Part shown: piece after piece, positions 18,865 to 60,540 of the stretch | How positions within the stretch are numbered: the stretch's first letter is position 1 | Layout of the letters: every line of letters begins with the position of its first letter | Assembly: GCF_001651875.1 (NCBI RefSeq) | Contig: NZ_LNQB01000102.1 | Span: 186,001 to 250,000, forward strand | Reading direction: 5' to 3' | Source: Sinorhizobium saheli | Lineage (GTDB): Bacteria > Pseudomonadota > Alphaproteobacteria > Rhizobiales > Rhizobiaceae | DNA length: 64,000 nt | Translations under genes and position numbers: made by a program | Notes under the pieces: generated by a model | Database searches by the model: none | Seen by the model: the letters and a program-made list of their open reading frames with translations, nothing else | Told to the model about the DNA's origin: nothing

Positions 18865-19020
18865 TCCCCTCCCAACCCCTCCCCACAAGGGGGAGGGACT
18901 TACCCTGCGGCACCGCCTCGCGCCACGCAACGCCTCCACAAGTGGTGGCGGGTCAGGCGAGCGAAGTCGGTGCCGCAGGCTAGGCCCCTCCCCCTTGTGG
19001 GGAGGGGTTGGGGAGGGGTA
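18865..19020. repeat. GC-rich mosaic inverted repeat
   Basis: Two ~50-base imperfect inverted arms are built on ACCCCTCCCCACAAGGGGGA and its complement. They flank a short centre and fill the space between the aldehyde dehydrogenase and glutamine-synthetase-like genes. The same arms recur at 30147-30350 and 33300-33454, so this is a dispersed intergenic element. Inside an operon it could fold in mRNA and uncouple expression of the flanking genes. Confidence 0.8.
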
Positions 19021-28159: not shown

Positions 28160-29131
28160 TCAACTTTTGAGCTTCAGCCGCCGGCGTGTCTCGCTGGGGC
28201 TTTCGCGATAATGGGCGCGGTAGCTGCGCGAGAACGACGATGAGGAATTGAAGCCGGAGATCGCCGCGATGTCGGCGAACTCCATCCGCGTCTCGATCAC
28301 CTTGCGACGCGCCGCGTTGAGCCTGAGCGCCAGATAATGTTCGTGCGGCGCCACCCCCATCGTGTCCTTGAAGAGGTCCTGCAGATGGCGGGCGCTGACG
28401 CCCACCCGACGCGCGAGCCTCGCAAGCGTCAGCGGCGCCTCGACCGTCTCCTCCATCAGCCTGACCGCCGCGCCGACACGGGCATCGAGGATGCGCATGT
28501 TGCCGATCGCCGGCATCTGCAGGAGGTCGCCGCGCGTGCGCTCCTGCTCGTAGATGAAGAGCCGCGACACCTCGAGCGCCAGCGAATAGCCATGCGCCCT
28601 ACGGATCAGTTCCAGCATCAGGTCGAGCGTCGGCAGCGAACCGCCGGTGGTGATCCGCTTGCCATCGATCACGAAACGCTCGCGCACCATGGTCACCTGC
28701 GGATAGGCGGCCGCGAAATCCTCGAAATCCTCCCAGTGCGTCGTGGCGGAGAAGTTGTCGAGAAGACTGGTCTCCGCAAGCAGCCAGGAGCCGGACTCGA
28801 TCCCCGCCATCATCTCGCGATGCCGCGCCGTCTGCGAGAGCAGCATCTTCAGTTGCGAGGTTGCGCTGCGCTGCCACTCGTAGCTCGAAAGCACGAAGAG
28901 CGGCGCCGTCTCGCGCTGCGGCCGGAACGGTCCTGCAACCGGAATGGGGATGCCGCTCTTCGTTTCGATCGCATGGCCATCCGGGCTGAACATCGTCCAG
29001 GTGTAAAGGCTGCGCCCGGCAATGCGGTTGGCGGCGCGCAACGGCTCGACGACGGAGGCGACGAGGATGAGATTGGTCTCCGGTAGCACCAGCAAGTCGA
29101 TATGCTGCGCCCCCTGACCAGCGCGATCCAT
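28160..29131 (-). CDS. GlxA-family transcriptional regulator of carnitine/betaine genes (CdhR-like)
   Basis: The 323-residue protein has an N-terminal DJ-1/PfpI-like sensor domain (LLVLPETNLILVASVVEPLRAAN, SSYEWQ, GIESGSWLLAETSLLDN, the FVIDGKRITTGG segment). A C-terminal AraC HTH pair follows (LTLARLARRVGVSARHLQDLFKDTMGVAPHEHY and FADIAAISGFNSSSSFSRSYRAHYRESPSETRRR). In Pseudomonas, relatives of this type (CdhR, GbdR) activate carnitine and glycine-betaine genes. It is divergent from the BKACE and carnitine dehydrogenase genes, so it is the likely activator of that run with carnitine or betaine as signal. The ATG at 29131 has GGAGGAAG 5-7 bases upstream. Confidence 0.9.
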   Translation of the reverse strand: MDRAGQGAQHIDLLVLPETNLILVASVVEPLRAANRIAGRSLYTWTMFSPDGHAIETKSGIPIPVAGPFRPQRETAPLFVLSSYEWQRSATSQLKMLLSQTARHREMMAGIESGSWLLAETSLLDNFSATTHWEDFEDFAAAYPQVTMVRERFVIDGKRITTGGSLPTLDLMLELIRRAHGYSLALEVSRLFIYEQERTRGDLLQMPAIGNMRILDARVGAAVRLMEETVEAPLTLARLARRVGVSARHLQDLFKDTMGVAPHEHYLALRLNAARRKVIETRMEFADIAAISGFNSSSSFSRSYRAHYRESPSETRRRLKLKS

Positions 29132-29239
29132 GGCGAACTTCCTCCGTCTTTCGCCGAGATTGTATAGAATGGTTCCGATCGAGAAAAGCAGTGCGGCGCT
29201 TTCTGGCTCGTAATGGGTCTCAACAAAAAGGAGACAGCC

Positions 29240-30142
29240 ATGCCGCTCAGCATGAACCGCGAGGTTTTCATCACCTGCGCCGTCACCGGTTCCGGAGACA
29301 CCGTTTCCAAATCCAGCCACGTTCCGGTCACGCCGAAACAGATCGCCGAAGCGGCGGTCGAGGCCGCCCGGGCGGGCGCGGCGGTCGTCCATTGCCACGT
29401 TCGCGATCCGGAGACCGGCGCCCCGTCCCGGCGCCTCGATCTCTACAGGGAAGTGACCGACCGCATCCGCTCCGCCGACATCGACGTGGTCCTGAACCTC
29501 ACCGCCGGCATGGGCGGCGACCTCGTCTTCGGCAATGTCGAAAGCCCCTTCCCGGTCAACGAGAAAGGCACCGACATGGCCGGCGCCAGCGAGCGCGTCG
29601 CCCATGTTGCCGCGTGCCTGCCGGAGATCTGCACCCTCGACTGCGGCACGATGAACTTCTCGCTCGGCGACTATGTGATGACCAACACGCCGTCGATGCT
29701 GCGCGAGATGGCGCGCCAGATGACGGCGCTTGGTGTCCGGCCCGAGATCGAGGCCTTCGACACCGGCCATCTCTGGTTCGCCAAGCAGCTCGTCGAGGAA
29801 GGCCTGATCGAGGACCCGGTCCTGATCCAGCTCTGCATGGGCATTCCGTGGGGGGCGCCGGACGACCTCAACACCTTCATGGCGATGGTCAACAACGTGC
29901 CGTCGAACTGGACCTTCTCGGCCTTCTCGATCGGCCGCAACGCCATGGCCTATCCGGCCGCCGCGATCCTCGCCGGCGGCAATGTCCGCGTCGGGCTGGA
30001 GGACAACCTCTATGTCGGCAAGGGCCAACTCGCGACCAACGGCCAGCTTGTCGAAAAGGCCGTGTCGGTGATCGAGGGCATGGGGGCGAAGATCATCGGA
30101 CCCAAAGAGGTCCGCGAGAAATTGAAACTGACGAAGCGGTAG
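29240..30142 (+). CDS. BKACE (DUF849) beta-keto acid cleavage enzyme, probable dehydrocarnitine cleavage
   Basis: The 300-residue protein is a TIM-barrel DUF849/3-keto-5-aminohexanoate-cleavage-family enzyme. It carries the zinc-binding VVHCHVRDPETG near residue 50, VVLNLTAGMGGD, CTLDCGTMNF, and FDTGHLWFAKQL. BKACE enzymes join a beta-keto acid to acetyl-CoA, giving acetoacetate plus a new CoA ester; in carnitine users dehydrocarnitine yields betainyl-CoA. The downstream neighbour is the carnitine dehydrogenase-thioesterase fusion, which supplies the substrate and clears the product, so this role is strongly supported by context. The ATG at 29240 has AAGGAG at good spacing; the ATG at 29213 is upstream of that site. 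Confidence 0.93.
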   Translation: MPLSMNREVFITCAVTGSGDTVSKSSHVPVTPKQIAEAAVEAARAGAAVVHCHVRDPETGAPSRRLDLYREVTDRIRSADIDVVLNLTAGMGGDLVFGNVESPFPVNEKGTDMAGASERVAHVAACLPEICTLDCGTMNFSLGDYVMTNTPSMLREMARQMTALGVRPEIEAFDTGHLWFAKQLVEEGLIEDPVLIQLCMGIPWGAPDDLNTFMAMVNNVPSNWTFSAFSIGRNAMAYPAAAILAGGNVRVGLEDNLYVGKGQLATNGQLVEKAVSVIEGMGAKIIGPKEVREKLKLTKR

Positions 30143-30146
30143 CAAA

Positions 30147-30350
30147 AACCCCTCCCCAACCCTCCCCACAAGGGGGAGGGCTTAACCTGCGGCAACGTCC
30201 GTGCCCGGAAGAGGCGTCAGCTTCGGCTGAAATGTCCGGTTCGGGGAAATCCGGAGAGGCAGGTGGGCAGTTCGAGAGGGACAGAGAGGATCCGGAGCCA
30301 CCCATCCCTCCCCCTTGTGGGGAGGGTGGCCCAAAGGGCCGGGAGGGGTT
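30147..30350. repeat. GC-rich mosaic inverted repeat
   Basis: Arms based on ACCCTCCCCACAAGGGGGAGG (30148-30181) and the complement (30304-30350) enclose a ~120-base centre without a gene. It is the same family as 18865-19020 and 33300-33454. It separates the BKACE gene from the carnitine dehydrogenase gene but need not break the transcript. Confidence 0.78.
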
Positions 30351-30377
30351 CCGCGGCAACAGTTGGATGGAGAGACA

Positions 30378-31868
30378 ATGACCATCATCACCAAGGCCGC
30401 CTGCGTCGGCGGCGGCGTCATCGGCGGGGCCTGGGCGGCGCGTTTCGCGCTGGCCGGCATTGACGTCAACATCTTCGATCCGCATCCGGAAGCCGAGCGC
30501 ATCATCGGCGAGGTGATGGCCAATGCGGAGCGCGCCTATGGCATGCTGACCATGGCGCCCTTGCCGCCGCGCGGCAAATTCACCTTCTGCAAAAGCATCC
30601 AGGAAGCCGTGCAGGACGTTGACTGGATTCAGGAAAGCGTCCCCGAGCGGCTGCCGCTGAAGCGCGGCGTGATCACCGAGATCGACGCGGCTGCCAAGCC
30701 GGCTGCCTTGATCGGCTCGTCGACTTCCGGACTGCTGCCCTCGGACCTCCAGGCCGAAATGAAACATCCCGAGCGCATGTTCGTGGCGCACCCTTATAAC
30801 CCCGTCTACCTGCTGCCGCTGGTCGAACTCGTCGGCGGCAAGAAGACCTCGCCCGAGACGATCAAGCGCGCTCAGGCAGCCGTCGCCGAGATCGGCATGA
30901 AGGGCGTCGTCATCGCCAAGGAGATCGAGGCCTTCGTCGGCGACCGGCTGCTCGAGGCGCTGTGGCGCGAGGCGCTCTGGCTGATCCAGGACGACATCTG
31001 CGATACCGAGACGCTCGACGATGTGATGCGCTATTCCTTCGGCATGCGCTGGGCGCAGATGGGGCTTTTCGAGACCTATCGCATCGCCGGCGGCGAAGCC
31101 GGCATGCGCCACTTCCTTGCGCAGTTCGGCCCCTGCCTGAAGTGGCCATGGACGAAGTTCACCGATGTCGTCGATCTCGACGACGCACTTGTCGAGAAGA
31201 TCGGCGCCCAATCGGACGCCCAGGCTGCCGGCCGGTCGATCCGCGAACTCGAACGCATCCGTGACGAGAACCTCGTCGGCATCATGCAGGCGCTGAAGGC
31301 TGGCAATGGCGGCGAAGGTTGGGGTGCCGGCAAGCTGCTCGCCGATTTCGAGAAGCGCCTCTGGGCAAGGGGTGGAGACCAGTCGAAGACCTACGACCCC
31401 TCCGGCCCGCTGCGCCTCGTCGAGACCAAGGTCAACGCCGCCTGGGTCGACTACAACGGCCACATGACCGAGCATCGCTACCTGCAGCTCTTCGGCGATA
31501 CGTCGGATGCGCTGCTCCGGCTGATCGGCGTCGATTTCGCCTATGTCAAAGCCGGCCACAGCTACTACACGGTGGAGACGCATATCCGCCATCTCGGCGA
31601 GGCCAAGCTCGGCCAGGCACTCTATACGACGCTGCAAATACTCGCCTCGGACGAGAAGCGCATCCACTTCTTCACCAGGATTCACGACACCGTCTCAGGC
31701 GAAGTGATCGCTACCGCCGAGCAGATGATGCTGCATGTCGACGCCCACGCCGGCAAGTCTGTCGCCGCACCGACCGAGGTATTGGAGAAGCTGAAGCCGA
31801 TCGCGGAAGGGCATGCGAGGCTTGGGGTGCCGGATGGCGCGGGCAGGCACGTCGGACAGAAACGCTGA
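30378..31868 (+). CDS. lcdH: L-carnitine dehydrogenase fused to a betainyl-CoA thioesterase domain
   Basis: The 496-residue protein is a fusion. Residues 1-~340 are a 3-hydroxyacyl-CoA-dehydrogenase-like NAD enzyme (CVGGGVIGGAWAARFALAG near residue 9; IQESVPERLPLKR; FVAHPYNPVYLLPLVELVGG; the helical C domain with EIEAFVGDRLLEALWREA). From about residue 345 a hot-dog domain follows, with the 4HBT motif AAWVDYNGHMTEHRYLQLF. The dehydrogenase turns L-carnitine into 3-dehydrocarnitine; the thioesterase should release glycine betaine from betainyl-CoA made by BKACE. This two-domain form is known from Sinorhizobium. The ATG at 30378 fits a GGAGAG site; the frame extends upstream only through repeat DNA. 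Confidence 0.95.
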   Translation: MTIITKAACVGGGVIGGAWAARFALAGIDVNIFDPHPEAERIIGEVMANAERAYGMLTMAPLPPRGKFTFCKSIQEAVQDVDWIQESVPERLPLKRGVITEIDAAAKPAALIGSSTSGLLPSDLQAEMKHPERMFVAHPYNPVYLLPLVELVGGKKTSPETIKRAQAAVAEIGMKGVVIAKEIEAFVGDRLLEALWREALWLIQDDICDTETLDDVMRYSFGMRWAQMGLFETYRIAGGEAGMRHFLAQFGPCLKWPWTKFTDVVDLDDALVEKIGAQSDAQAAGRSIRELERIRDENLVGIMQALKAGNGGEGWGAGKLLADFEKRLWARGGDQSKTYDPSGPLRLVETKVNAAWVDYNGHMTEHRYLQLFGDTSDALLRLIGVDFAYVKAGHSYYTVETHIRHLGEAKLGQALYTTLQILASDEKRIHFFTRIHDTVSGEVIATAEQMMLHVDAHAGKSVAAPTEVLEKLKPIAEGHARLGVPDGAGRHVGQKR

Positions 31869-31887
31869 GACGACAAGGTGGCGGCCC

Positions 31888-32040
31888 CTCATCCGGCTGC
31901 CGCCACCTTCTCCCCGCAGGCGGACCGCAGGCGGGGAGAAGGGACATGCCGCGGCGCCGGGCACCAAAAGTCCCCTCTCCCCGCGTGCGGGGAGAGGGTT
32001 AGTCCTCGGGTCAAACCCGAGGAGAGGGGCAAGCCACATC
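31888..32040. repeat. Mosaic repeat of the CTTCTCCCCGC type
   Basis: Several small stems are packed together: TTCTCCCCGC/GCGGGGAGAA, CTCTCCCCGCGTGCGGGGAGAG, and CTCGGGTCAAACCCGAG. The same modules recur at 47327-47470, 51708-51870, 52709-52765, 54411-54512 and 60418-60540. This is a dispersed rhizobial intergenic mosaic, here in the gap between the carnitine dehydrogenase and acyl-CoA dehydrogenase genes. Confidence 0.75.
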
Positions 32041-32108
32041 CGGGAAGCCTGCGGATCGCCAGGGAGATCGGTCCGGAAATGGCGAGAGCGAAACGACGAG
32101 GGAGAACG

Positions 32109-33269
32109 ATGAATTTCGCACTGTCTGAAGAACAGCAGATGATCGTCGATACGGTCCGCGGCTTCGTTGAGACCGAGATCTATCCGCACGAGAACGAAGT
32201 CGAGCGCACCGGCGTCGTGCCGCGCGAGCTCGGCCAGGAAATCGCCCGCAAGTGCAAGGAGCTCGGGTTCTTCGCCTGCAATTTTCCCGAGGAGGTCGGC
32301 GGCGCCGGGCTCGATCATCTGACCTTCACCCTCGTTGAGCGCGAGCTCGGCCGCGGCTCGATGGGGCTCACCGTCTTCTTCGGCCGCCCCTCGGGCATCC
32401 TGATGGCCTGCAACGACGAACAGCGCGAGCGCTATCTGCTGCCGGCCGTGCGCGGCGACAAGTTCGACGCGCTTGCGATGACCGAGCCGGACGCCGGCTC
32501 GGACGTGCGCGGCATGAAGTGCTTCGCGAAACAGGACGGCGACGACTGGGTCGTCAACGGCACGAAGCACTTCATCAGCCATGCCGATATCGCCGATTTC
32601 GTCATCGTCTTCATCGCCACCGGCGAGGAAGAGACGCCGCGCGGGCCGAAGAAGAAGATCACCTGCTTCCTGGTCGACCGCGGCACGCCCGGTTTCGAAA
32701 TCCGTGACGGGTACAATTCCGTATCGCATCGCGGCTACAAGAACTGCATCCTCACCTTCGACGACTGTCGCCTGCCCTCCTCTCAAGTGCTCGGCGAGGT
32801 TCACAAGGGTTTCGACCTCGCCAATGACTGGCTTTATGCGACCCGCCTGACCGTTGCCGCCACCTCGGTCGGCCGCGCCCGCCGCGCCTTCGACTATGCG
32901 CTCTCCTACGCCGCCGAGCGCAAACAGTTCGGCAAGCCGATCGGCGCCAACCAGGGCGTCTCCTTCAAGCTCGCCGACATGATCACCGACATCGATGCAG
33001 CCGACCTCCTGACGCTGTCGGCCGCCTGGCGGCTCGACCAGGGCCTGCCGTCGAACCGCGAGATCGCCTCTGCCAAGCTCTTTGCCACCGAAATGCTCGC
33101 CCGGGTCACCGACGAGGCGATCCAGATTTTTGGCGGCATGGGACTGATGGACGACCTGCCGCTCGCCCGCTTCTGGCGCGACGCCCGCGTCGAGCGCATC
33201 TGGGACGGCACCTCGGAGATCCAGCGGCACATCATCAGCCGCGATCTTTTGCGGCCGCTGGGGGCGTAG
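32109..33269 (+). CDS. Acyl-CoA dehydrogenase, possibly acting on gamma-butyrobetainyl-CoA
   Basis: The 386-residue protein is a full-length ACAD: N-terminal helical domain (LSEEQQMIVDTVRGFVETEIYPHE), FAD/substrate block ALAMTEPDAGSDVRG, NGTKHFISHADIADF, AAERKQFGKPIGANQGV and the C-terminal QIFGGMGLMDDLPLARFWRDARVERIWDGTSEIQ. It introduces a 2,3-double bond into an acyl-CoA using FAD and ETF. The setting between carnitine dehydrogenase and an acyl-CoA synthetase/CaiD pair suggests a CaiA-like enzyme working in the oxidative direction on gamma-butyrobetainyl-CoA. That substrate is inference. The ATG at 32109 lies just after an AGGGAG site. Confidence 0.93.
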   Translation: MNFALSEEQQMIVDTVRGFVETEIYPHENEVERTGVVPRELGQEIARKCKELGFFACNFPEEVGGAGLDHLTFTLVERELGRGSMGLTVFFGRPSGILMACNDEQRERYLLPAVRGDKFDALAMTEPDAGSDVRGMKCFAKQDGDDWVVNGTKHFISHADIADFVIVFIATGEEETPRGPKKKITCFLVDRGTPGFEIRDGYNSVSHRGYKNCILTFDDCRLPSSQVLGEVHKGFDLANDWLYATRLTVAATSVGRARRAFDYALSYAAERKQFGKPIGANQGVSFKLADMITDIDAADLLTLSAAWRLDQGLPSNREIASAKLFATEMLARVTDEAIQIFGGMGLMDDLPLARFWRDARVERIWDGTSEIQRHIISRDLLRPLGA

Positions 33270-33299
33270 GCGATGGCGGTTTTCTTTTGCGCTGATAGA

Positions 33300-33454
33300 G
33301 CCCCTCCCCAACCCCTCCCCACAAGGGGGAGGGACTTGCAAGCGGCACCGTCTCACCCCACCCGACATCACCACAAGCGGTCAGGGGTCGGGCAACACAA
33401 GGAGCGTGCCGCAAGGAAGCCTCTCCCCCTTGTGGGGAGGGGTTGGGGAGGGGT
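33300..33454. repeat. GC-rich mosaic inverted repeat
   Basis: The third copy of the ACCCCTCCCCACAAGGGGGA element, with arms at 33300-33334 and 33421-33454, lies between the acyl-CoA dehydrogenase and acyl-CoA synthetase genes. The right arm ends just before the ribosome site of the synthetase. Confidence 0.8.
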
Positions 33455-33478
33455 CTTTTGTGGAAGTGGGGGGCAGGC

Positions 33479-35542
33479 ATGACCCGTCCTCCCCGCCCCC
33501 TCGACCGCCTCATCCGCCCGCACTCGATCGCCGTCTTCGGCGGCAAGGAAGCCCGCCGTGTCATCGAGCAATGCGACAAGATGGGCTTTGCGGGCCATAT
33601 CTGGCCGGTGCACCCGCGCGAGGAGGAAATCCTCGGCCGCCGCTGCTTCCGCTCCGTCGCCGATCTGCCGGAGGTGCCCGACGCCGCCTTCGTCGGCGTC
33701 AACCGGGCGCTGACGGTCGAGATCATCCGGGAGCTCGCAGCCCGCGGCGCCGGCGGTGCGGTCTGCTACGCCTCCGGCTTCCGCGAGGCGGCAAGCGAGC
33801 TTGCCGACGGCAACGACCTGCAGGAGGCACTCGTTGCGGCAGCCGGCGACATGCCGATCGTCGGGCCGAACTGCTACGGCTTCATCAACATGCTGGACGG
33901 CGCGCTTCTGTGGCCGGATCAGCACGGCATGCTCCGCGTCGAGCGCGGCGTCGCGATCCTGACGCAATCCTCCAACATCGCCTGCAACATCTCCATGCAG
34001 AAGCGCGGGCTGCCGCTCGCCTATCTCATGACCGCCGGCAACCAGGCCCAGACCGGTCTTTCCGACATCGCCTGCGCCGCGCTCGAAGACCCGCGTGTCA
34101 CGGCGGTCGGCCTGCATATCGAGGGCTTCGACAGCATCGAGGCCCTGGAGCGGCTGGCGACGCGCGCCCGCGTTTTGCGCAAGCCTGTCGTCACGCTGAA
34201 GGTCGGCAGGTCGGAGGCAGCCCGGCTTGCGACCGTTTCCCACACGGCGTCCCTCGCCGGCAACGACCGCGTCTCCTCGGCCCTCCTCGCCCGCCTCGGC
34301 ATCGGTCGCGTCGACACGCTGCCGGAGCTTCTCGAGACCCTGAAGCTCCTGCACCTGCATGGCCCCCTCGCCAATGCCGACATTTCCTCGATGAGCTGTT
34401 CGGGCGGCGAGGCCTCGCTGATGGCGGATGCCGGCGTCCGGCGCAGGGTCAACTTCCGCCCGCTCAAGGAGGAGCAGCGCCTGCCGCTCAGGGAAAGCCT
34501 CGGCGAGATGGTGACGATCGCCAACCCGCTCGACTACCACACCTTCGTCTGGGGCAATCGCGACAAGCAGACGACCGCCTTCGCCGCCATGATGCGGGGC
34601 GGCTATGCGCTGAACCTGATCGTGCTGGATTTCCCCCGCCTCGACCGCTGCGACGCCGCCGACTGGGTGACGACCTGCGATGCGGTCATCGATGCGGCAA
34701 GGGCGACCGGCGCCAGCGCCGGCATCGTCGCGAGCCTCGGCGAAAACATGCCGGAGGAAACCGCCCTCTCCCTGATGAAGGCTGGCGTCGTTCCCTTCTT
34801 CGGCATCGACGAAGCGCTTGCCGCCGCCGAAACCGCGGCCGCGATCGGCTCGGCCTGGGCACGGCCGGTCCCGCCGCCCCTCCTCCGCACGCGACCGGAA
34901 GAGTCAGAGGTGGTGACGCTGACGGAGGCGGAGGCCAAGGCGGAACTCGCCCGGGCCGGGATAGTCGTCCCGGAGGGCCGGACCGCCACGACCGCAGAAG
35001 CGGCCGCGGATGCCGCCGAAGTGCTCGACTTTCCCGTGGTGCTCAAGGGCCTCGGCGTCGCCCATAAGACGGAAGCGGGCGCGGTCAAGCTCGGCCTTGG
35101 AAGCCGTGAAGACGTGCGCGCAGCCGCAGAGGCGATGGCGTCCGTCGCCCGCGGCTATCTTGTCGAGAGGATGATCCCGCAGCCCGTTGCGGAACTCATC
35201 GTCGGCGCCAGGCGCGATCCTGTCGCCGGCCCGGTGCTGACGATCGGCGCGGGCGGAGTTCTCGTCGAATTGCTCGACGATGCAGCAATCCTGACGTTGC
35301 CCGCGACCGAAGAGGCAATTCGCGAGGCGATCGCCGGCCTCAAGGCCGGCAGGCTGCTGGACGGGTACCGCGGCCGCCCGAAGGGCGATGTGGCCGCGCT
35401 CGCGGACATTGTCGCTGCCGCGGCATCCTATGTCGTTGCAAACGCTTCCAAACTCGAAGAACTCGATATCAATCCTATAATGGTGTTGCCGGAAGGCCAT
35501 GGAGCCGTTGCCGCCGATGCCTTGATCCGCCGGAGGAAATGA
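33479..35542 (+). CDS. ADP-forming acyl-CoA synthetase (ACD type)
   Basis: The 687-residue protein has the fused alpha-beta order of nucleoside-diphosphate-forming acyl-CoA synthetases. It starts with a CoA-binding domain (LIRPHSIAVFGGKEARRVIEQ..., CYASGFREA, VGPNCYGFIN). A succinyl-CoA-ligase-like domain follows with the phospho-His motif VSHTASLAGND, and a C-terminal ATP-grasp_5 domain comes from about residue 475 (TEAEAKAELARAGIVVPEG, FPVVLKGLG.AHKTEAGAVKLGL, ELDINPIMV). It would activate a carboxylate with ATP and CoA, giving ADP, and is reversible. It is a potential replacement for the AMP-forming CaiC ligase of enterobacterial carnitine operons. It overlaps the crotonase frame at its 3' end, so the two are coupled. 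Confidence 0.9.
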   Translation: MTRPPRPLDRLIRPHSIAVFGGKEARRVIEQCDKMGFAGHIWPVHPREEEILGRRCFRSVADLPEVPDAAFVGVNRALTVEIIRELAARGAGGAVCYASGFREAASELADGNDLQEALVAAAGDMPIVGPNCYGFINMLDGALLWPDQHGMLRVERGVAILTQSSNIACNISMQKRGLPLAYLMTAGNQAQTGLSDIACAALEDPRVTAVGLHIEGFDSIEALERLATRARVLRKPVVTLKVGRSEAARLATVSHTASLAGNDRVSSALLARLGIGRVDTLPELLETLKLLHLHGPLANADISSMSCSGGEASLMADAGVRRRVNFRPLKEEQRLPLRESLGEMVTIANPLDYHTFVWGNRDKQTTAFAAMMRGGYALNLIVLDFPRLDRCDAADWVTTCDAVIDAARATGASAGIVASLGENMPEETALSLMKAGVVPFFGIDEALAAAETAAAIGSAWARPVPPPLLRTRPEESEVVTLTEAEAKAELARAGIVVPEGRTATTAEAAADAAEVLDFPVVLKGLGVAHKTEAGAVKLGLGSREDVRAAAEAMASVARGYLVERMIPQPVAELIVGARRDPVAGPVLTIGAGGVLVELLDDAAILTLPATEEAIREAIAGLKAGRLLDGYRGRPKGDVAALADIVAAAASYVVANASKLEELDINPIMVLPEGHGAVAADALIRRRK

Positions 35543-35547
35543 CGCCT

Positions 35548-36330
35548 ATGACCGGACCGATCCGCACACATCGCGAAGGCGGCATTCTCGAGGTCACGAT
35601 CGACCGGCCGAAGGCCAACGCCATCGACCTGAAGACCAGCCGGCTAATGGGCGAAATCTTCCGTGATTTCCGCGACGACCCGGAGCTTCGGGTTGCGATC
35701 GTCACCGGTGCCGGCGAGAAATTCTTTTGCCCCGGCTGGGACCTCAAGGCGGCGGCGGAGGGCGATCCCGTCGATGGCGACTATGGCGTCGGCGGCTTCG
35801 GCGGCATGCAGGAGCTGCGCGACCTCAACAAGCCGATCATAGCCGCCGTCAACGGCATCTGCTGCGGCGGCGGGCTGGAAATCGCGCTCTCGGCCGACCT
35901 CATCCTCGCCGCCGAGCATGCGACCTTCGCGCTTCCGGAGATCCGCTCGGGCACGCTCGCCGATGCCGCCTCGATCAAGCTGCCGAAGCGCATCCCCTAC
36001 CACATCGCCATGGATATGCTGCTGACGGGTCGCTGGCTCGACGCGGTCGAGGCCAACCGCTGGGGTTTCGTCAACGAGATCCTGCCGGCCGAACGGCTGA
36101 TGGAGCGCGCATGGGAACGCGCCCGCCTGCTCGAAAGCGGACCGCCGCTCGTCTACGCCGCCATCAAGGAAGTGGTGCGTGAGGCCGAGAGCCGTGATTT
36201 CCAGACGACGATGAACAGGGTGACCCGTCGGCAGTTCAGGACTGTCGACACGCTTTATTCGAGCGAGGACCAGCTGGAGGGCGCGCGAGCCTTCGCTGAA
36301 AAGCGCGAGCCCGTCTGGAAGGGACGGTGA
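35548..36330 (+). CDS. Enoyl-CoA hydratase/isomerase, CaiD-like crotonase
   Basis: The protein (260 residues from ATG 35548) is a crotonase: VTIDRPKANAIDLKTSRLM, the oxyanion block GAGEKFFCPGWDLKAAAEG, and IIAAVNGICCGGGLEIALSADLILAAEHATFALPEIRSG with the acidic residues expected for hydration. Length and motifs match carnitinyl-CoA dehydratase (CaiD, 261 residues), which interconverts crotonobetainyl-CoA and carnitinyl-CoA. An ATG at 35539 overlaps the synthetase stop, but only 2 bases separate it from the GGAGG site; the ATG at 35548 is better spaced. As the last gene of the carnitine run it fits a hydration step feeding carnitine dehydrogenase. Confidence 0.87.
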   Translation: MTGPIRTHREGGILEVTIDRPKANAIDLKTSRLMGEIFRDFRDDPELRVAIVTGAGEKFFCPGWDLKAAAEGDPVDGDYGVGGFGGMQELRDLNKPIIAAVNGICCGGGLEIALSADLILAAEHATFALPEIRSGTLADAASIKLPKRIPYHIAMDMLLTGRWLDAVEANRWGFVNEILPAERLMERAWERARLLESGPPLVYAAIKEVVREAESRDFQTTMNRVTRRQFRTVDTLYSSEDQLEGARAFAEKREPVWKGR

Positions 36331-36668
36331 GATGGGGGCCGCTCCACGGCCCCGCGGAAAGGTCTTTGAGCCGGGTGGAACCGGCATCCGAGCGTGGTGC
36401 GCGGCGGCCGTCGGCGCGCGCGTCGAGGTCGGACATCCATAGGCTATGCTTATGAAAAAGATCGTTATTTAGGGCGTTACAAGCCGGGTCCAAACGGCTA
36501 GCCTTATGGATCAGGATGGCGGCGGACGCCGAAGAAGGAGGAGGTCAAGACGGCAGGATTAATCGGGGCAGCAGCCCGAAGTCAGGGCCATCGCGCGCGG
36601 TGGCGGTACGCGAACACTCTACCAATCACAATGAACGGCGAATGCCGATTAACGAAGGGAACAGGGGA
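36331..36668. other. Intergenic stretch with hairpin and promoter of the peptide importer
   Basis: There is no convincing gene. A 7-bp GC stem (GGGGCCG / CGGCCCC, 36335-36353) lies 5 bases after the crotonase stop but lacks a T-run, so it may be a weak terminator. The AT-richer segment around 36440-36490 is the likely promoter region for the binding-protein gene. A long in-frame extension of that gene from 36516 lacks a ribosome site and would put a long leader before the Tat signal. Confidence 0.5.
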
Positions 36669-38258
36669 ATGAGCGATTACAAGGACTATCTGACACGGCA
36701 GGTCATGCTGGGCAAAATGAACCGGCGGGAGTTTCTCGGGCGCGCGGCCGCCTTCGGCATTGCCGCATCGGCCGCGAACACGCTGTTTGCGGCAAGCGCC
36801 GCGGCGCAGGAGCCGAAGCGCGGCGGGCACCTGAAGCTCGGCCTCGAAGGCGCGGCCGCAACCGATTCGCGCGATCCGGCAAAGGCCCTCTCGCAATTCC
36901 TGTTCGTCGTCGTTCGGACCTGGGGCGATCTCCTCGTGGAGAGCCATCCGACGACCGGCGCGCCCGTGCCGGCGCTTGCCGAATCCTGGGAGCCTTCAAC
37001 CGACGCGGCCACCTGGACCTTCACGATCCGCAAGGGCGTCAAGTTCCATGACGGCAAGGAACTGACCGTCGAGGACGTCGTCAAGACGCTGCAACGTCAC
37101 ACCGACGACAAGTCGGAGTCGGGCGCCCTCGGCGTCATGAAATCCATCAAGGAAATCAAGGCCGATGGCGGCAAGCTCGTGCTGACCTTGACGGAAGGCA
37201 ATGCCGACCTGCCGCTGCTGCTTTCGGACTACCACCTCGTCATCCAGCCGAACGGCGGCATGGACAACCCGGACGCCATGATCGGCACCGGCCCCTACAA
37301 GGTCGCGAGCTTCGAACCGGGCGTGCGCGCCACTTTCGAGAGGAACCCGGACGATTGGCGCACGGATCGAGGTTATGTGGATTCGATCGAACTGATCGCC
37401 ATGAACGACGCGACGGCGCGCATCGCGGCGCTTTCCTCCGGCCAGGTGCACTTCATCAACCGTGTCGACCCCAAGACGGTGAACCTGTTGAAGCGCGCGC
37501 CGACCGTGGAAATCCTCAACACCTCCGGCCGCGGTCACTACGTCTTCATCATGCATTGCAACACCGCGCCGTTCGACAACAACGATCTGAGGATGGCGCT
37601 GAAACTGGCGATGGATCGCGAGACCATGGTCCAGCGCATCCTCGGCGGCTACGGCAAGGTCGGCAATGATTTCCCGATCAACGACACCTACGCCCTCTTC
37701 CCGGAGGGCATCGAGCAGCGCGTCTATGATCCGGACAAGGCCGCCTTCCACTACAAGAAGTCCGGACACAGCGGACCGGTACTGTTGCGCACCTCCGACG
37801 TCGCCTTCCCGGGCGCGGTTGATGCAGCCGTTCTCTACCAGGAGAGCGCCAAGAAGGCCGGCATCGAGATCGAGGTCAAGCGCGAGCCGGGCGACGGCTA
37901 CTGGACCAATGTCTGGAACGTCCAGCCGTTCTGCACCTCCTACTGGGGCGGCCGTCCGACGCAGGACCAGATGTACTCGACGGCCTATCTGTCGAACGCC
38001 GACTGGAACGACACCCGCTTCCAGCGTGAGGACTTCGACAAGCTCCTGCTCGAGGCCCGCTCCGAGCTCGACGAGGCCAAGCGCAAGGACATGTACCGTA
38101 CCCTGGCGACGATGGTGCGCGACGAAGGCGGGCTGATCCTGCCGATGTTCAACGATTTCGTGAACGCTTCCACCAAGCAGGTGAAGGGCTATGTCCACGA
38201 CATCGGCAACGACATGTCGAACGGCTATGTCGCAACCCGGGTGTGGCTGGACGCATGA
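36669..38258 (+). CDS. ABC transporter substrate-binding protein, SBP_bac_5 (peptide type), Tat-exported
   Basis: The 529-residue protein has a twin-arginine signal: MNRREFLGRAAAFGIAASAA with RREFLG at residues 19-24, cleavage near AAAQ-EP (about residue 46). The body is a DppA/OppA-type binding protein (RGGHLKLGLEG, PALAESWEPSTDAATWTFTIRKGVKFHDGKELTVEDVV, NPDAMIGTGPYKV, LRMALKLAMDRE). Its ATG at 36669 has AAGGGA 8 bases upstream. It is the first of four importer genes and a CocE hydrolase. Tat export means it folds before secretion. Ligand unknown; peptides, amides or betaine derivatives are possible given the carnitine genes upstream. Confidence 0.93.
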   Translation: MSDYKDYLTRQVMLGKMNRREFLGRAAAFGIAASAANTLFAASAAAQEPKRGGHLKLGLEGAAATDSRDPAKALSQFLFVVVRTWGDLLVESHPTTGAPVPALAESWEPSTDAATWTFTIRKGVKFHDGKELTVEDVVKTLQRHTDDKSESGALGVMKSIKEIKADGGKLVLTLTEGNADLPLLLSDYHLVIQPNGGMDNPDAMIGTGPYKVASFEPGVRATFERNPDDWRTDRGYVDSIELIAMNDATARIAALSSGQVHFINRVDPKTVNLLKRAPTVEILNTSGRGHYVFIMHCNTAPFDNNDLRMALKLAMDRETMVQRILGGYGKVGNDFPINDTYALFPEGIEQRVYDPDKAAFHYKKSGHSGPVLLRTSDVAFPGAVDAAVLYQESAKKAGIEIEVKREPGDGYWTNVWNVQPFCTSYWGGRPTQDQMYSTAYLSNADWNDTRFQREDFDKLLLEARSELDEAKRKDMYRTLATMVRDEGGLILPMFNDFVNASTKQVKGYVHDIGNDMSNGYVATRVWLDA

Positions 38259-39373
38259 CGATGGAAAGCGGACCGATCACTGGTCCGGTTCTGACGGATG
38301 CGGCCGCGGGGGAGACGCCCCTGCGGCCCGCCGATCTTTCCGGAGTACCAGCAAAACCCAACCCCGCCGTCGCCACGGGCGAGATCGGCGGCACGTTCTG
38401 GCGGCGTTTCATCTTCCGCCGCCCTCTCGCGGCGCTGATCCTGCAGCGCCTCGGCTTGAGCGTCGGCCTGCTTTTCGCGGTGTCGCTGATGATCTTCGGC
38501 GGCATCGAAGCGCTGCCCGGCGATTTCGCCACCACCTATCTCGGCCAGTCGGCGACGCCTCAGGCGGTCGAGAACATCCGCCGGGATCTCGGCCTCGACC
38601 GGCCATGGAGCGAACGCTATCTCGACTGGCTCGGCGGAGCCGTGCAGGGTGACTTCGGCACCTCCTGGGCAAGCAAGAACTCGGTCAGCGAGCAGATCGG
38701 CAACCGGCTCGGCAATTCGCTGTTCCTCGCCTTCTTCGCCGCGCTCATCTCGGTGCCGCTTGCCGTCGGTCTCGGCATGCTCGCGGTCCAGTTTCGCAAC
38801 CGCATGCCGGACAAGATCATCAACGTGATTTCGCTGGCGGCGATCTCGCTGCCGGAATTCTTCATCGGCTACCTGTTGATCATGTTCTTCGCCGTCAAAT
38901 GGGGCGTCGCCACCTTCCCGGCGACGGTCTACGACAGCATGAGCTTCGCCGAGCGCCTGTCGGCAATCGCCCTTCCCGTCGCCACCCTCGTGCTGGTCGT
39001 TCTCGCCCACATGATGCGCATGACGCGGGCGGCGATCCTCAACGTCATGTCCTCCGCTTACGTCGAGACCGCCGAACTCAAGGGCCTAGGCACCTTCCGC
39101 ATCATCGCCCGCCATGCGGCTCCCAACGCCGTGGCGCCGGTGATCAACGTCATCGCACTCAACCTCGCCTATCTCGTCGTCGGCGTCGTCGTCGTGGAAG
39201 TCGTCTTCGTCTATCCCGGCATGGGGCAATATATGGTGGATGCGGTGACCGTGCGCGACATGCCCGTCGTGCAGGCCTGCGGCCTGATCTTCGCGGCCTT
39301 CTACATCTTTCTCAACATGGCGGCCGACATTCTCGCCATTCTCGCCAACCCGAGACTGAGGCACCCGCGATGA
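38255..39373 (+). CDS. ABC transporter permease, DppB type
   Basis: The 372-residue membrane protein begins with a ~50-residue polar extension before helix 1 (LILQRLGLSVGLLFAVSLMIFGGIEALPGD, the DppB/OppB consensus). It continues with the periplasmic LGLDRPWSERYLDWLGGAVQGDFGTSW and the C-terminal EAA-type loop TAELKGLGTFRIIARHAAPNAVAPVINV. It overlaps the binding-protein stop by 4 bases (ATGA) and the next permease by 4 bases. The N-terminal extension is longer than usual and may reflect a later true start at 38261 or beyond. Confidence 0.92.
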   Translation: MTMESGPITGPVLTDAAAGETPLRPADLSGVPAKPNPAVATGEIGGTFWRRFIFRRPLAALILQRLGLSVGLLFAVSLMIFGGIEALPGDFATTYLGQSATPQAVENIRRDLGLDRPWSERYLDWLGGAVQGDFGTSWASKNSVSEQIGNRLGNSLFLAFFAALISVPLAVGLGMLAVQFRNRMPDKIINVISLAAISLPEFFIGYLLIMFFAVKWGVATFPATVYDSMSFAERLSAIALPVATLVLVVLAHMMRMTRAAILNVMSSAYVETAELKGLGTFRIIARHAAPNAVAPVINVIALNLAYLVVGVVVVEVVFVYPGMGQYMVDAVTVRDMPVVQACGLIFAAFYIFLNMAADILAILANPRLRHPR

Positions 39374-40197
39374 ATCTTCGATCTATCCCCCTCAGCGCCT
39401 GGGTCGGCATCATCGGCATTGCAATCGCCGCCCTCTGCGCCATCTTCGCCCCGGTCATCGCTCCCTTCGGCGAGCGGGACGTCGTCGGCGAAATCTGGGC
39501 GCCGGCCGGCGGCGACTTCCTGCTCGGCACCGACAATCTCGGGCGCGACCTGCTCTCGCGCCTGATCTACGGTGCCCGCACGACGATCTTCGTCGCGCTG
39601 GCGGCAACCCTGATCTCCTTCGCGCTCGGCATGATCCTGAGCTTCACCGCAGCCGTGACCGGCGGCTTCGTCGACCAGCTCTTCTCGCGCTTCAACGACC
39701 TGATGATGGCCGTTCCGACGCTGATTTTCGCGCTGGTCGTTCTCGCCGTGCTGCCGCAGCATCTGTGGATCCTGATCCTCGTCATGGCGGTGCTCGACTC
39801 CACCCGCGTCTTCCGCATCGGCCGCGCCGTCGCGCTCGACGTGGCGGTGATGGAATTCGTCGAGGCGGCGCGGCTGCGTGGCGAAGGCTCGCTGTGGATC
39901 ATCTTCCGGGAGATCCTGCCGAACACGCTGTCGCCGCTGCTTGCCGAATTCGGCCTGCGCTTCGCCTTCTCGATCCTGTTCCTCTCCACCCTTTCCTTCC
40001 TCGGCCTCGGCATCCAGCCGCCGGCCGCTGACTGGGGCGGCATGGTCAAGGACAACAAGGACGGCATCATCTTCGGCATCTCCGCCGCGCTCGTTCCGGG
40101 CGCGGCGATCGCCGCCCTCGCCATCTGCGTCAATCTCGTCGTCGACTGGCTGATGAAGCGCACTTCGAGCCTGAAGGGAGGACGCGGCGATGCCTGA
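39370..40197 (+). CDS. ABC transporter permease, DppC type
   Basis: The 275-residue membrane protein has the OppC/DppC signature FLLGTDNLGRDLLSRLIYGARTT after helix 1 and the EAA loop EAARLRGEGSLWIIFREILPNTLSPLLAEF, then ILFLSTLSFLGLGIQPPAADWGGMV. It pairs with the DppB-type subunit. Its ATG overlaps the preceding stop by 4 bases; its end overlaps the ATPase gene by 8 bases, so expression of all subunits is tightly coupled. Confidence 0.94.
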   Translation: MNLRSIPLSAWVGIIGIAIAALCAIFAPVIAPFGERDVVGEIWAPAGGDFLLGTDNLGRDLLSRLIYGARTTIFVALAATLISFALGMILSFTAAVTGGFVDQLFSRFNDLMMAVPTLIFALVVLAVLPQHLWILILVMAVLDSTRVFRIGRAVALDVAVMEFVEAARLRGEGSLWIIFREILPNTLSPLLAEFGLRFAFSILFLSTLSFLGLGIQPPAADWGGMVKDNKDGIIFGISAALVPGAAIAALAICVNLVVDWLMKRTSSLKGGRGDA

Positions 40198-41821
40198 GCT
40201 GCTATCCGTCAAGAACCTGAAGATTGAGGCGACGAGCTATCCGCCGGGTGAGCCGCCGAAGGTGGTGACACTGGTCGAGGGCGTCTCGTTCGATCTCGAG
40301 AAGGGCAAGGTCCTCGGCCTCATCGGCGAGTCCGGCGCCGGCAAGTCGACGATCGGCCTTTCGGCGCTCGCTTATGGCCGCGGCGGATGCCGCATCACCG
40401 GCGGCGAGGTGCTGCTCAATGGCAAGGACATCCTGAAGCTCGACCGTTCCGGCATCAATGCCGTCCGCGGCTGCCATGTCTGCTATGTCGCCCAATCGGC
40501 TGCGGCCGCCTTCAACCCCGCCCACAAGCTCGGCGACCAGGTGATCGAGGCTTCGCTCCGTCACGGGCTCATGACGCGCGAGGAAGCGAGGAAGCGGGCG
40601 CTCTACCTCTTCCGGGTCCTCGGCCTTCCCGATCCGGAAACCTTCGGCGATCGCTATCCGCACCAGGTTTCGGGCGGGCAGTTGCAGCGCGCCATGACCG
40701 CCATGGCGCTCTGCCCCAATCCCGAACTGATCGTCTTCGACGAGCCGACGACAGCCCTCGACGTGACGACGCAGATCGACGTTCTGGCGGCGATCAAGCA
40801 CGCGATCGAGGAGACGCATACGGCGGCGCTCTATATCACCCACGACCTCGCCGTGGTCGCCCAGATCTCCGACGACATCATGGTGCTCCGCCACGGCAAG
40901 ACCGTGGAATACGGCACGACCAAGCAGGTGATCGAGGCGCCGAAGGAGGACTATACCCGCGCGCTCGTCAGCGTCCGCCAGACCAGGCGCGACGAAGCCG
41001 CGGACCAGTCCGGCACGCTCCTCGAGATCGAGCACGTCCATGCCGCCTACGGCAACGGCTTCAAGGTCCTGCACGACGTCTCGATGCACCTGCCGAAGGG
41101 CCAGACGCTGGCGATCGTCGGCGAATCCGGCTCCGGCAAGTCGACCCTTGCGCGCGTCATCACCGGCCTCCTGCCGCCGACGGAAGGCCGGATCACCTTC
41201 GACGGCACGGAACTGCCGAAGGCGCTCAAGGGGCGGACGCACGAGCACCTGCGTCGCATCCAGATGATCTACCAGATGGCGGATACGGCGATGAACCCGC
41301 GCCAGACGGTCAGGAACATCGTCGGCCGGCCCCTTTCCTTCTATTTCGGCATGCATGGCGCTCAGAAGACCGAGCGCGTCAAGGAGCTGCTCGACCAGAT
41401 CGAAATGGGGTCGCGCTTCCTCGACCGCTACCCGGCCGAGCTTTCCGGCGGACAGAAGCAGCGCGTGGCGATCGCCCGGGCGCTTGCCGCGAAGCCCGAG
41501 CTCATCCTCTGCGACGAGCCGACCTCCGCCCTCGATCCGCTGGTCGCCGAAGGCATCCTGAATCTGCTTCTGAAGCTTCAGGAGGAAACCGCTGTTTCCT
41601 ATGTCTTTATCACGCACGACATCGCCATCGTCAGGGCGATCGCCGACTCGGTCGCGGTGATGCATCGCGGGCGGCTCGTGCGCTTCGGCCCGAAATCGAA
41701 GGTGCTCTCGCCGCCCTTCGACGACTACACCGACCTTTTGTTGAAGTCGGTGCCGGAAATGGAGATCGGCTGGCTCGAAAAGGTGCTGAAGACCCGCCGG
41801 ATGGCAAGCGCCGGAAACTGA
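40190..41821 (+). CDS. ABC transporter ATPase with two fused ABC domains (DppD-DppF type)
   Basis: The 543-residue protein carries two ATPase domains. The first has Walker A GESGAGKST, signature VSGGQLQRAMTAMAL and Walker B LIVFDEPTTALD. The second begins after residue ~275 with GESGSGKST, LSGGQKQRVAIARAL and ELILCDEPTSALD. Each is followed by an H-loop (YITHDLAVV; FITHDIAIV). Peptide importers normally use two separate ATPases; the fusion keeps the pair at 1:1. The variant VSGGQLQR signature in half 1 is usual for DppD-like halves. Confidence 0.94.
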   Translation: MPELLSVKNLKIEATSYPPGEPPKVVTLVEGVSFDLEKGKVLGLIGESGAGKSTIGLSALAYGRGGCRITGGEVLLNGKDILKLDRSGINAVRGCHVCYVAQSAAAAFNPAHKLGDQVIEASLRHGLMTREEARKRALYLFRVLGLPDPETFGDRYPHQVSGGQLQRAMTAMALCPNPELIVFDEPTTALDVTTQIDVLAAIKHAIEETHTAALYITHDLAVVAQISDDIMVLRHGKTVEYGTTKQVIEAPKEDYTRALVSVRQTRRDEAADQSGTLLEIEHVHAAYGNGFKVLHDVSMHLPKGQTLAIVGESGSGKSTLARVITGLLPPTEGRITFDGTELPKALKGRTHEHLRRIQMIYQMADTAMNPRQTVRNIVGRPLSFYFGMHGAQKTERVKELLDQIEMGSRFLDRYPAELSGGQKQRVAIARALAAKPELILCDEPTSALDPLVAEGILNLLLKLQEETAVSYVFITHDIAIVRAIADSVAVMHRGRLVRFGPKSKVLSPPFDDYTDLLLKSVPEMEIGWLEKVLKTRRMASAGN

Positions 41822-41912: not shown

Positions 41913-43910
41913 ATGGTCGACCGCAGCTTCACCGTCATCGAAAACGAATGGATCCCGCTCAAGGACGGGACCCGGCTTGCCGCGCGCATCTGGATGCCGG
42001 AAGGAACCGAGCAGAGCCCCGTACCGGCCGTGCTCGAATACCTGCCCTACCGCAAGCGCGACGGGACCTCTGCCCGGGACGAATCCACCTACCCCGTCTT
42101 CGCGGCGGCCGGCATCGCCGGCGTGCGCGTCGACATCCGCGGCTCCGGCGAATCGGAAGGCGTGATCGACGGCGAATATACGCCGCGCGAACTTTCCGAC
42201 GGCTGCGAGATCATCGAATGGATCGCCGCACAGCCGTGGTCGAACGGCAAGGTCGGCATGATGGGCATCTCCTGGGGCGGCTTCAACTGCCTGCAGGTGG
42301 CTGCGCTGAAACCGCCGGCGCTGAAGGCGGTCATCTCCATCGCCTCGACCGTCGACCGCTATAATGACGACATCCATTACAAGAACGGCTGCCATCTCTC
42401 GGCGCAGCTTTCCTGGGCTGCCACCATGCTCGCCTACCAGTCGCGCTCGCCCGATCCGGAGCTCGTCGGCGAAGGCTGGAGGGAGATGTGGCTGGAACGG
42501 CTCGAGAACGAACCGTTCTTCCTGGAGGAATGGCTGGAACATCAGCGCCGCGACGATTTCTGGCGCCACGGTTCGATTTGCGAGGACTTCGACGGCTTCC
42601 CTGTCCCTGCCCTCGTTATTGCCGGCTGGGCCGACGGCTACCGCAATACGCCGATCAAGGCCGTCGAGGGCCTGGGCAGCAGGGCCAAGGCACTGATCGG
42701 GCCCTGGGTCCACAAGTATCCGCATTTCGCCTGGCCGAAACCGCGGGCGGACTTCCACAGCGAAGCGATCCGCTGGTGGAACCGGTGGCTGCGCGACGAG
42801 CTGAACGATGCCGAGAAGCTGCCGCAGATGCGCGCCTATATCCTCGACGGGCCGAGGCCGGCGCTCCGGCGCGAAGCAGACCCGGGCCGCTGGGTCGCCA
42901 AGGACGCCTGGACCCCGCCCGCAATGCAGACCCTCGCCGTTGCGGGCGACGGCAGCCTTATTGCAGCGGGCTCCGCCGCGAAGGGGATCGGTGACGTCTA
43001 TCTCCGCTCGCCGCTCGACACCGGCACCGCCGCCGGCGAATATTTCACGCTGAAGCCGGACGCCGAAATGGCCGGCGACCAGCGCATCGATGACGCCGGC
43101 TCCCTCGTCTTCCAAACGCATCCCCTGCTCGAAGCAGAGGACTATCTCGGCCAGCCGGTTCTGACCCTCGATGTCGCCTGCGGTGCCGAGACCGCCAACC
43201 TCGTCGCGCGCCTCGTCGATGTCCACCCGGACGGCACGGCGACCCGCGTCGCCTTCGGCGTCCTCAACCTCGCGCACCGCAACGGCAATGCCAAGCCGGC
43301 ACCGATGCAGAAGAACCACAAGACGCGCGTCACCCTGGTGCTCGACGCCTGCGGCTATCGCTTCCGCGCCGGCCACCGCATCCGCCTGTCGCTGTCGACA
43401 TCCTACTGGCCGATGATCCTGCCGCCGCCGAACGATCCCGGCCTCACGATCGACACCGCCACGCTGTTCCTGTCGCTGCCGCTTCTCGGCGACCACCGCG
43501 AAATCGTCGTGCCGCGGCCGGCCAATCCGGATCCGCTGCCCAGCTACATAGAGCATTCGCCGGCGAAAACGCGCCGCAGCGTCGAGCGCGACATGACGAA
43601 GGGCGTGACGCATTACCGGATCTACGAGGACACCGGCCTCGTCGAGCACCCCGAAACCGGCAACGCGACGCAGGACATCCGTGATGAAACCTGGTCGATC
43701 AAGCCCGATGATCCGCATTCGATGACGGGCGTTTCGACCTGGACCTGCATCGCCAGACGCGGCGAGCAGTCCCTCCGGACGATCGCAACCTCCCGCCTTA
43801 GCTGCACGGAAACGGAATGGATCACCGCGGCCAAGGTCGAGGCCTTCGAGGGTGAGGAGAAGATTTTCGAGAAGATTTTCGAGAAGCGGATCGGGCGGGA
43901 CTTCATGTGA
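41913..43910 (+). CDS. CocE/NonD-family hydrolase (X-Pro dipeptidyl-peptidase/esterase fold)
   Basis: The 665-residue protein has an N-terminal alpha/beta hydrolase domain with nucleophile elbow MGISWGGF (Ser120), VDIRGSGESEG, and later the acid/His region around IAGWADGYRNTPI and GPWVHKYPHFAWP. A C-terminal jelly-roll XPepD_C domain follows (YLRSPLDTGTAAGEYF, GHRIRLSLSTSYWPMILPP). Known relatives are cocaine esterase and alpha-amino-acid ester/amide hydrolases. It starts 92 bases after the ATPase gene on the same strand with GGGAGG upstream, so it likely processes the imported ligand, an ester or amide. No signal peptide, hence cytosolic. Confidence 0.92.
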   Translation: MVDRSFTVIENEWIPLKDGTRLAARIWMPEGTEQSPVPAVLEYLPYRKRDGTSARDESTYPVFAAAGIAGVRVDIRGSGESEGVIDGEYTPRELSDGCEIIEWIAAQPWSNGKVGMMGISWGGFNCLQVAALKPPALKAVISIASTVDRYNDDIHYKNGCHLSAQLSWAATMLAYQSRSPDPELVGEGWREMWLERLENEPFFLEEWLEHQRRDDFWRHGSICEDFDGFPVPALVIAGWADGYRNTPIKAVEGLGSRAKALIGPWVHKYPHFAWPKPRADFHSEAIRWWNRWLRDELNDAEKLPQMRAYILDGPRPALRREADPGRWVAKDAWTPPAMQTLAVAGDGSLIAAGSAAKGIGDVYLRSPLDTGTAAGEYFTLKPDAEMAGDQRIDDAGSLVFQTHPLLEAEDYLGQPVLTLDVACGAETANLVARLVDVHPDGTATRVAFGVLNLAHRNGNAKPAPMQKNHKTRVTLVLDACGYRFRAGHRIRLSLSTSYWPMILPPPNDPGLTIDTATLFLSLPLLGDHREIVVPRPANPDPLPSYIEHSPAKTRRSVERDMTKGVTHYRIYEDTGLVEHPETGNATQDIRDETWSIKPDDPHSMTGVSTWTCIARRGEQSLRTIATSRLSCTETEWITAAKVEAFEGEEKIFEKIFEKRIGRDFM

Positions 43911-60417: not shown

Positions 60418-60540
60418 TGGCCCCTCTCCTCGGGTTTAACCCGAGGACTAACCCTCTCCCCAGAGGGGACTGGGGGGCGCGGCATGCCCCTTCGCCCCGC
60501 TTGCGGGGAGAAGGTGCCGGCAGGCGGATGAGGGGCGCTC
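60418..60540. repeat. Mosaic repeat between convergent genes
   Basis: CTCCTCGGGTTTAACCCGAG, CTCTCCCCAGAGGGGA and CTTGCGGGGAGAAGG units lie side by side. These are the same modules, including the CTCGGGT/ACCCGAG stem, as at 31888-32040. It lies between the LysR and membrane-hydrolase stops and may act as a two-way terminator. Confidence 0.75.

Follow-up and report, generated by a model that had tools for sequence, protein, structure and literature searches.

Gene content of the operon

The window analysed here is a 64,000-nucleotide stretch of the Sinorhizobium saheli genome (contig NZ_LNQB01000102.1, positions 186,001 to 250,000), and in its region 29240..36330 both ORF coordinates and Pfam/NCBIfam matches confirm a run of five plus-strand genes with a divergent regulator. 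Genes were named from Pfam and NCBIfam profile matches judged against curated cut-offs, and the presence, domains and order of the genes, as well as the conservation and catalytic residues treated below, are direct observations. A preliminary description of this DNA had listed a BKACE, a carnitine dehydrogenase-thioesterase fusion (LcdH), an acyl-CoA dehydrogenase (ACAD), an ADP-forming (ACD-type) synthetase and a CaiD-like crotonase opposite a regulator, and both the domains and the order are borne out, the five enzymes forming a single co-directional run. The features are as follows.

28160..29200 (true start not fixed), minus strand: GATase1-like AraC-family regulator of the GbdR/CdhR kind (HTH_18, weak DJ-1/PfpI)
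29240..30142, plus strand: BKACE, putative 3-dehydrocarnitine cleavage enzyme (PF05853, 331 bits)
30378..31868, plus strand: L-carnitine 3-dehydrogenase fused to a 4HBT-type thioesterase, LcdH (NF005716; 3HCDH_N, 3HCDH and 4HBT_2)
32109..33269, plus strand: acyl-CoA dehydrogenase, predicted gamma-butyrobetainyl-CoA dehydrogenase (Pfam ACAD domains)
33479..35542, plus strand: fused ADP-forming-type acyl-CoA synthetase, putative BcoAB orthologue (PF13380, PF13607 and PF13549)
35539..36330, plus strand: CaiD-like crotonobetainyl-CoA hydratase (51% identical to E. coli CaiD; its start overlaps the ligase stop, ATGA)
36516..41821, plus strand: dipeptide/nickel-type ABC transporter directly downstream of the hydratase (SBP_bac_5, two permeases and a fused double ATPase)
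41913..43910, plus strand: CocE/NonD (S15-type) hydrolase (TIGR00976, 230 bits, cut-off 66)

The LcdH fusion matches the carnitine 3-dehydrogenase model NF005716 at 944 bits against a cut-off of 592 and carries its 4HBT_2 thioesterase domain C-terminally, while BKACE is the sole match to PF05853 in the genome at E <= 0.001. The ligase combines CoA_binding_2, Succ_CoA_lig and ATP-grasp_5 on one chain, all above Pfam cut-offs; the genome also encodes two further strong ATP-grasp_5 ligases, as well as CaiC-like AMP-forming ligases, none of them above the family cut-off. The dehydrogenase and the hydratase both score under the curated cut-offs of all NCBIfam models listed for each, the top model for the hydratase being crotonobetainyl-CoA hydratase (312 bits, under a cut-off of 500). 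In the regulator, HTH_18 is accompanied by a sub-threshold DJ-1/PfpI match, and the GlxA/CdhR-type protein that had been predicted on the opposite strand is indeed present, being GbdR-like by its best NCBIfam model at a score below cut-off (222.6 bits against 480).

The Sinorhizobium meliloti counterpart and the predicted pathway

Both the operon and its ligase have been recognised before in Sinorhizobium meliloti, a close relative, and the pathway is not new. The S. meliloti 4H41 locus (L043) has the same five-gene order, the same divergent regulator and the same downstream ABC transporter as the window, and over the best aligned segment the two strains are 93% identical in the regulator, 95% in BKACE, 92% in LcdH, 96% in the acyl-CoA dehydrogenase, 87% in the ACD-type ligase and 93% in the hydratase. 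We found no difference of substance between them; in S. meliloti 4H41 the transporter and the S15 gene are separated by a further SBP_bac_5 gene (69%). Because S. meliloti has the same operon, ligase included, we regard that of S. saheli as a typical case of a pathway already described, leading from gamma-butyrobetaine (GBB) to glycine betaine, and its genes can therefore be named with confidence.

Work by Bazire and colleagues in 2019 is reported to have shown that S. meliloti converts GBB into glycine betaine by five enzymes in seven steps. In passages of Rajakovich et al. (PMC8364193), S. meliloti BcoAB is named a gamma-bb:CoA ligase, and BcoAB together with MgCl2, ATP, CoA and gamma-bb gave gamma-bb-CoA, which was purified; the bcoAB plasmid is credited there as a gift of A. 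Perret. A passage of PMC12482172, citing Bazire et al. 2019, states that S. meliloti SM2011_c01638 turns carnitine into 3-dehydrocarnitine and betainyl-CoA into glycine betaine. Carnitine and betainyl-CoA are published substrates of the S. meliloti fusion. We take BcoAB to be the ligase of L043, because the name suits a fused two-subunit enzyme and the species is the same.

It is highly likely that the window holds the rhizobial GBB utilisation operon, and its five genes very probably convert gamma-butyrobetaine into carnitine and then into glycine betaine. The following roles are those predicted for the window's own proteins. The fused ACD-type ligase (BcoAB) would phosphorylate its own His255 with ATP and pass the phosphate to GBB, which would then become GBB-CoA, with ADP as the expected by-product. 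The acyl-CoA dehydrogenase would oxidise GBB-CoA to crotonobetainyl-CoA, and the CaiD-like hydratase would convert this into L-carnitinyl-CoA. The simplest candidate for then removing CoA is the LcdH thioesterase domain, and the alternative is the ligase working in reverse. LcdH would subsequently turn L-carnitine into 3-dehydrocarnitine. BKACE enzymes carry out an acetyl-CoA-dependent cleavage that gives betainyl-CoA and acetoacetate, and the BKACE of the operon would act in this way on 3-dehydrocarnitine, leaving the thioesterase domain of LcdH to release glycine betaine from betainyl-CoA. The GbdR-like regulator, and perhaps the dipeptide-type ABC importer, would accompany the pathway, which in the cell would presumably run in the oxidative direction. 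In the portions of the literature covered by our search we found no statement that the S. meliloti-type ligase yields ADP, and one may be in print.

A different purpose for the same chemistry is conceivable, whereby the main purpose of the operon would be to supply carnitine or glycine betaine for osmoprotection, and feeding on GBB would matter less. Glycine betaine, with which the route ends, protects cells against osmotic stress, and the divergent regulator is GbdR-like. However, carnitine is broken down by BKACE and LcdH of the very same gene run, and we consider the osmoprotectant role unlikely relative to GBB utilisation.

Several known systems resemble the GBB utilisation operon in part. 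The enterobacterial cai operon (CaiABCD) has its CoA-level chemistry in common with the window operon, and in blastp comparisons with E. coli the window hydratase is 51% identical to CaiD and the dehydrogenase 30% identical to CaiA. However, E. coli CaiB and CaiC found no match among 15 window proteins (blastp, E <= 1e-5), and the window operon differs from the cai operon in its predicted oxidative direction and in its linkage to LcdH and BKACE. The bbu cluster of Emergencia timonensis, according to passages of PMC8364193, likewise converts GBB to a CoA ester and employs an ACAD-like flavoprotein, but class III CoA transferases replace the ligase, TMA is released and the process is anaerobic. 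A carnitine dehydrogenase and a BKACE occur together in a SAR11 island as they do in the window, yet the relevant passage of PMC12421898 names a GBB dioxygenase (BBOX) in place of the CoA route. A search for BBOX in the genome of the window gave no match, but the search's own controls gave none either.

Distribution of the operon within the order

Relatives were gathered by a genome scan with the ligase as query, and the best 80 of 255 were retained as a near set, with titles naming either rhizobial genera (Sinorhizobium/Ensifer, Rhizobium and Shinella, for example) or Rhizobiales/Hyphomicrobiales bacteria. A ligase search across 297 genomes of the order found matches in 57 genomes at E values up to 1e-100, and 40 of the 70 listed matches were chosen as a far set, mostly the best together with a spread of weaker ones. 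The preliminary description had suggested looking for the five-gene order in other Rhizobiales, and the full order BKACE-LcdH-ACAD-ligase-hydratase is found on one strand at 74 of the 80 near loci and in full at 23 of the 40 far loci. The remaining six near loci are cut by contig ends (the ligase lying <=3.3 kb from the end in each), and with the order complete at all the others it cannot be ascribed to chance. Among the far loci, 36 of 40 have a match to LcdH, 32 to BKACE and 33 to the hydratase, with all five genes close together at 25, and the association of the operon extends far into the order. Weak LcdH matches (31-46% identity) are among the 36, and other dehydrogenases are therefore possible at some far loci, while at four (L124, L131, L132 and L149) the ligase and the acyl-CoA dehydrogenase occur without LcdH within the stretch.

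The acyl-CoA dehydrogenase adjoins the ligase at 77 of the 80 near loci and, on the same strand, at 39 of the 40 far loci. This pairing bears upon a second reading of the activation genes, namely that they serve mainly to convert crotonobetaine or D-carnitine to L-carnitine via CoA esters, with GBB as a side substrate. The ligase and hydratase could also take crotonobetaine, and CaiD, to which the hydratase is 51% identical, is annotated as a crotonobetainyl-CoA hydratase. However, crotonobetaine needs no acyl-CoA dehydrogenase, and GBB-CoA is reported to have been made with S. meliloti BcoAB (in the passages of PMC8364193 cited above), so that we judge crotonobetaine or D-carnitine quite unlikely as the main substrate and retain GBB in that role.

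As a converse control, LcdH was used as the query, and matches were found in 99 of the 297 genomes at E values up to 1e-40, a threshold that admits other dehydrogenases. By hand count, LcdH scores above 300 bits in 56 genomes, 40 with a ligase match and 16 without (stretches L169-L172 were left out of the 16, their genomes having a ligase match). In 13 of these 16 ligase-less genomes BKACE and/or LcdH are present and their surroundings lack ACAD, hydratase and CaiC-like genes alike, and among the remaining loci L158 has a dehydrogenase at a contig end and L162 a weak CaiC-like gene (28%); L158, L164 and L168 are short contigs. It follows from the 13 genomes that the activation genes are mostly gained or lost jointly, and their joint presence or absence beside the carnitine module is as an add-on for GBB predicts. 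One exception to the joint pattern is L161 (genome G013), where LcdH, an acyl-CoA dehydrogenase and a CaiD-like hydratase stand together with no ligase in the stretch; inspection of the L161 ORFs by eye for another activating enzyme beside these three genes recognised none. As loci were chosen via ligase or LcdH queries, triads with another activating enzyme could escape.

These counts also alter how the ligase itself should be viewed. The preliminary description had called an ACD-type ligase unusual in a position where AMP-forming CaiC or transferase CaiB would be expected, whereas in this order the ligase accompanies LcdH in 40 of the 56 genomes above, and a CaiC-like alternative lies near LcdH just once among the other 16, as the weak match at L162. 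Across the order, an ACD-type ligase is what normally accompanies this operon as activating enzyme, and it represents no oddity. The route first proposed stands in outline, complete with its ACD-type ligase, on S. meliloti orthology, gene order and the published use of BcoAB, while the supposed strangeness of the ligase falls away.

At two loci, L148 and L152 (genomes G068 and G036), BKACE-like (54-55%) and LcdH-like (35-38%) genes are accompanied by a second ligase, 41% identical, which may point to a kindred pathway acting on some other substrate.

Genes flanking the operon are less uniformly retained. A homologue of the divergent regulator occurs at 72 of the 80 near loci, and homologues of the ABC binding protein and permease fall within the stretch at 65 near loci and 7 of the 40 far loci, the transporter being a possible importer of GBB or carnitine compounds. 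The CocE/NonD hydrolase, which might free betaine compounds from esters or amides, is more loosely linked than the transporter (33 of the 80 near loci and a single one of the 40 far loci have it within the stretch). Within the operon, the gaps 30143-30377, 31869-32108 and 33270-33478 bear palindromic repeats that recur in the window (e.g. 18866-19019 and 60420-60536). The matching gaps measure <=40 bases in some relatives (21 of 74, 11 of 75 and 36 of 78, respectively), and the repeats may therefore have invaded a tight operon.

Catalytic and putative substrate-binding residues

In the hydratase, E114 and E134, which we take to align with the Glu pair of crotonase, are conserved in all 80 near and all 33 far aligned hydratases. 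Near its C-terminus the acyl-CoA dehydrogenase bears the motif IWDGTSE, in which, upon alignment to short-chain acyl-CoA dehydrogenase, Asp takes the place of a Glu that is presumably the catalytic base of that enzyme. This Asp is found in all 77 near rows, the 39 far rows divide into 17 with Asp and 22 with Glu, largely split by clade, and the corresponding residue of E. coli CaiA is Gly. A tree built from 12 of the 77 near rows, all 39 far rows, the window and CaiA resolves two main clades, one with Glu and one with Asp, the latter including the window and S. meliloti. The tree's count of two Glu/Asp changes is rough given its long branches, on which CaiA, L149, L148 and L147 lie, and the joining of L148 with L149 may be wrong. 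Because both forms adjoin LcdH and BKACE, the choice of Asp or Glu is no sign of a separate pathway.

Four ligase residues, H255, W358, H529 and K530, are kept in all 80 near and all 40 far relatives, and H255 aligns with the His of solved relatives, including His292 of DddX, as a conserved phosphorylated His. The closest solved match is DddX itself (7cm9), at 23-24% identity, and solved relatives of the ligase use 3-hydroxypropionate, 4-hydroxybutyrate and acetate. DddX is an ATP-dependent DMSP lyase of the ACD superfamily for which the aromatics Trp391 and Phe435 are proposed to accommodate the sulfonium substrate, and the window ligase is aromatic at both places. Judged from sequence positions alone, position 358 is Trp throughout both sets (80 near and 40 far relatives), and position 396 is Trp in all 80 near relatives and Trp, Phe or Tyr in 39 of the 40 far ones.

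The substrates of the solved relatives, together with the distant loci that are missing LcdH, would suit a third reading, in which the substrate of the three activation genes would be an unrelated short acyl group and the carnitine module no more than a neighbour. We find this very improbable in view of the LcdH matches at most far loci (36 of 40), the S. meliloti ligase described in passages of PMC8364193 and the aromatic pair W358/W396.

DddX further differs from the window ligase in its proposed lyase base, Glu432, which aligns with Ala at position 393 of the window protein. None of the 80 near or 40 far relatives has Glu at position 393, where 10 of the far ones carry Asp, although Glu occurs at the adjacent position 394 in 10 of 80 near and 4 of 40 far relatives, such that an alignment shift would alter the comparison with Glu432. 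On these residue patterns we tentatively entertain, as a suggestion more doubtful than not, that BcoAB and DddX form an onium-acid branch of the ACD superfamily sharing the aromatic pair, with the added base making a lyase of DddX, alongside the swap of Glu and Asp as base in the dehydrogenase. If this were true, the pair common to BcoAB and DddX would cradle a trimethylammonium or dimethylsulfonium group. The DddX-like aromatics and the Glu/Asp split of the dehydrogenase offer small, testable points on how onium acyl-CoAs are handled.
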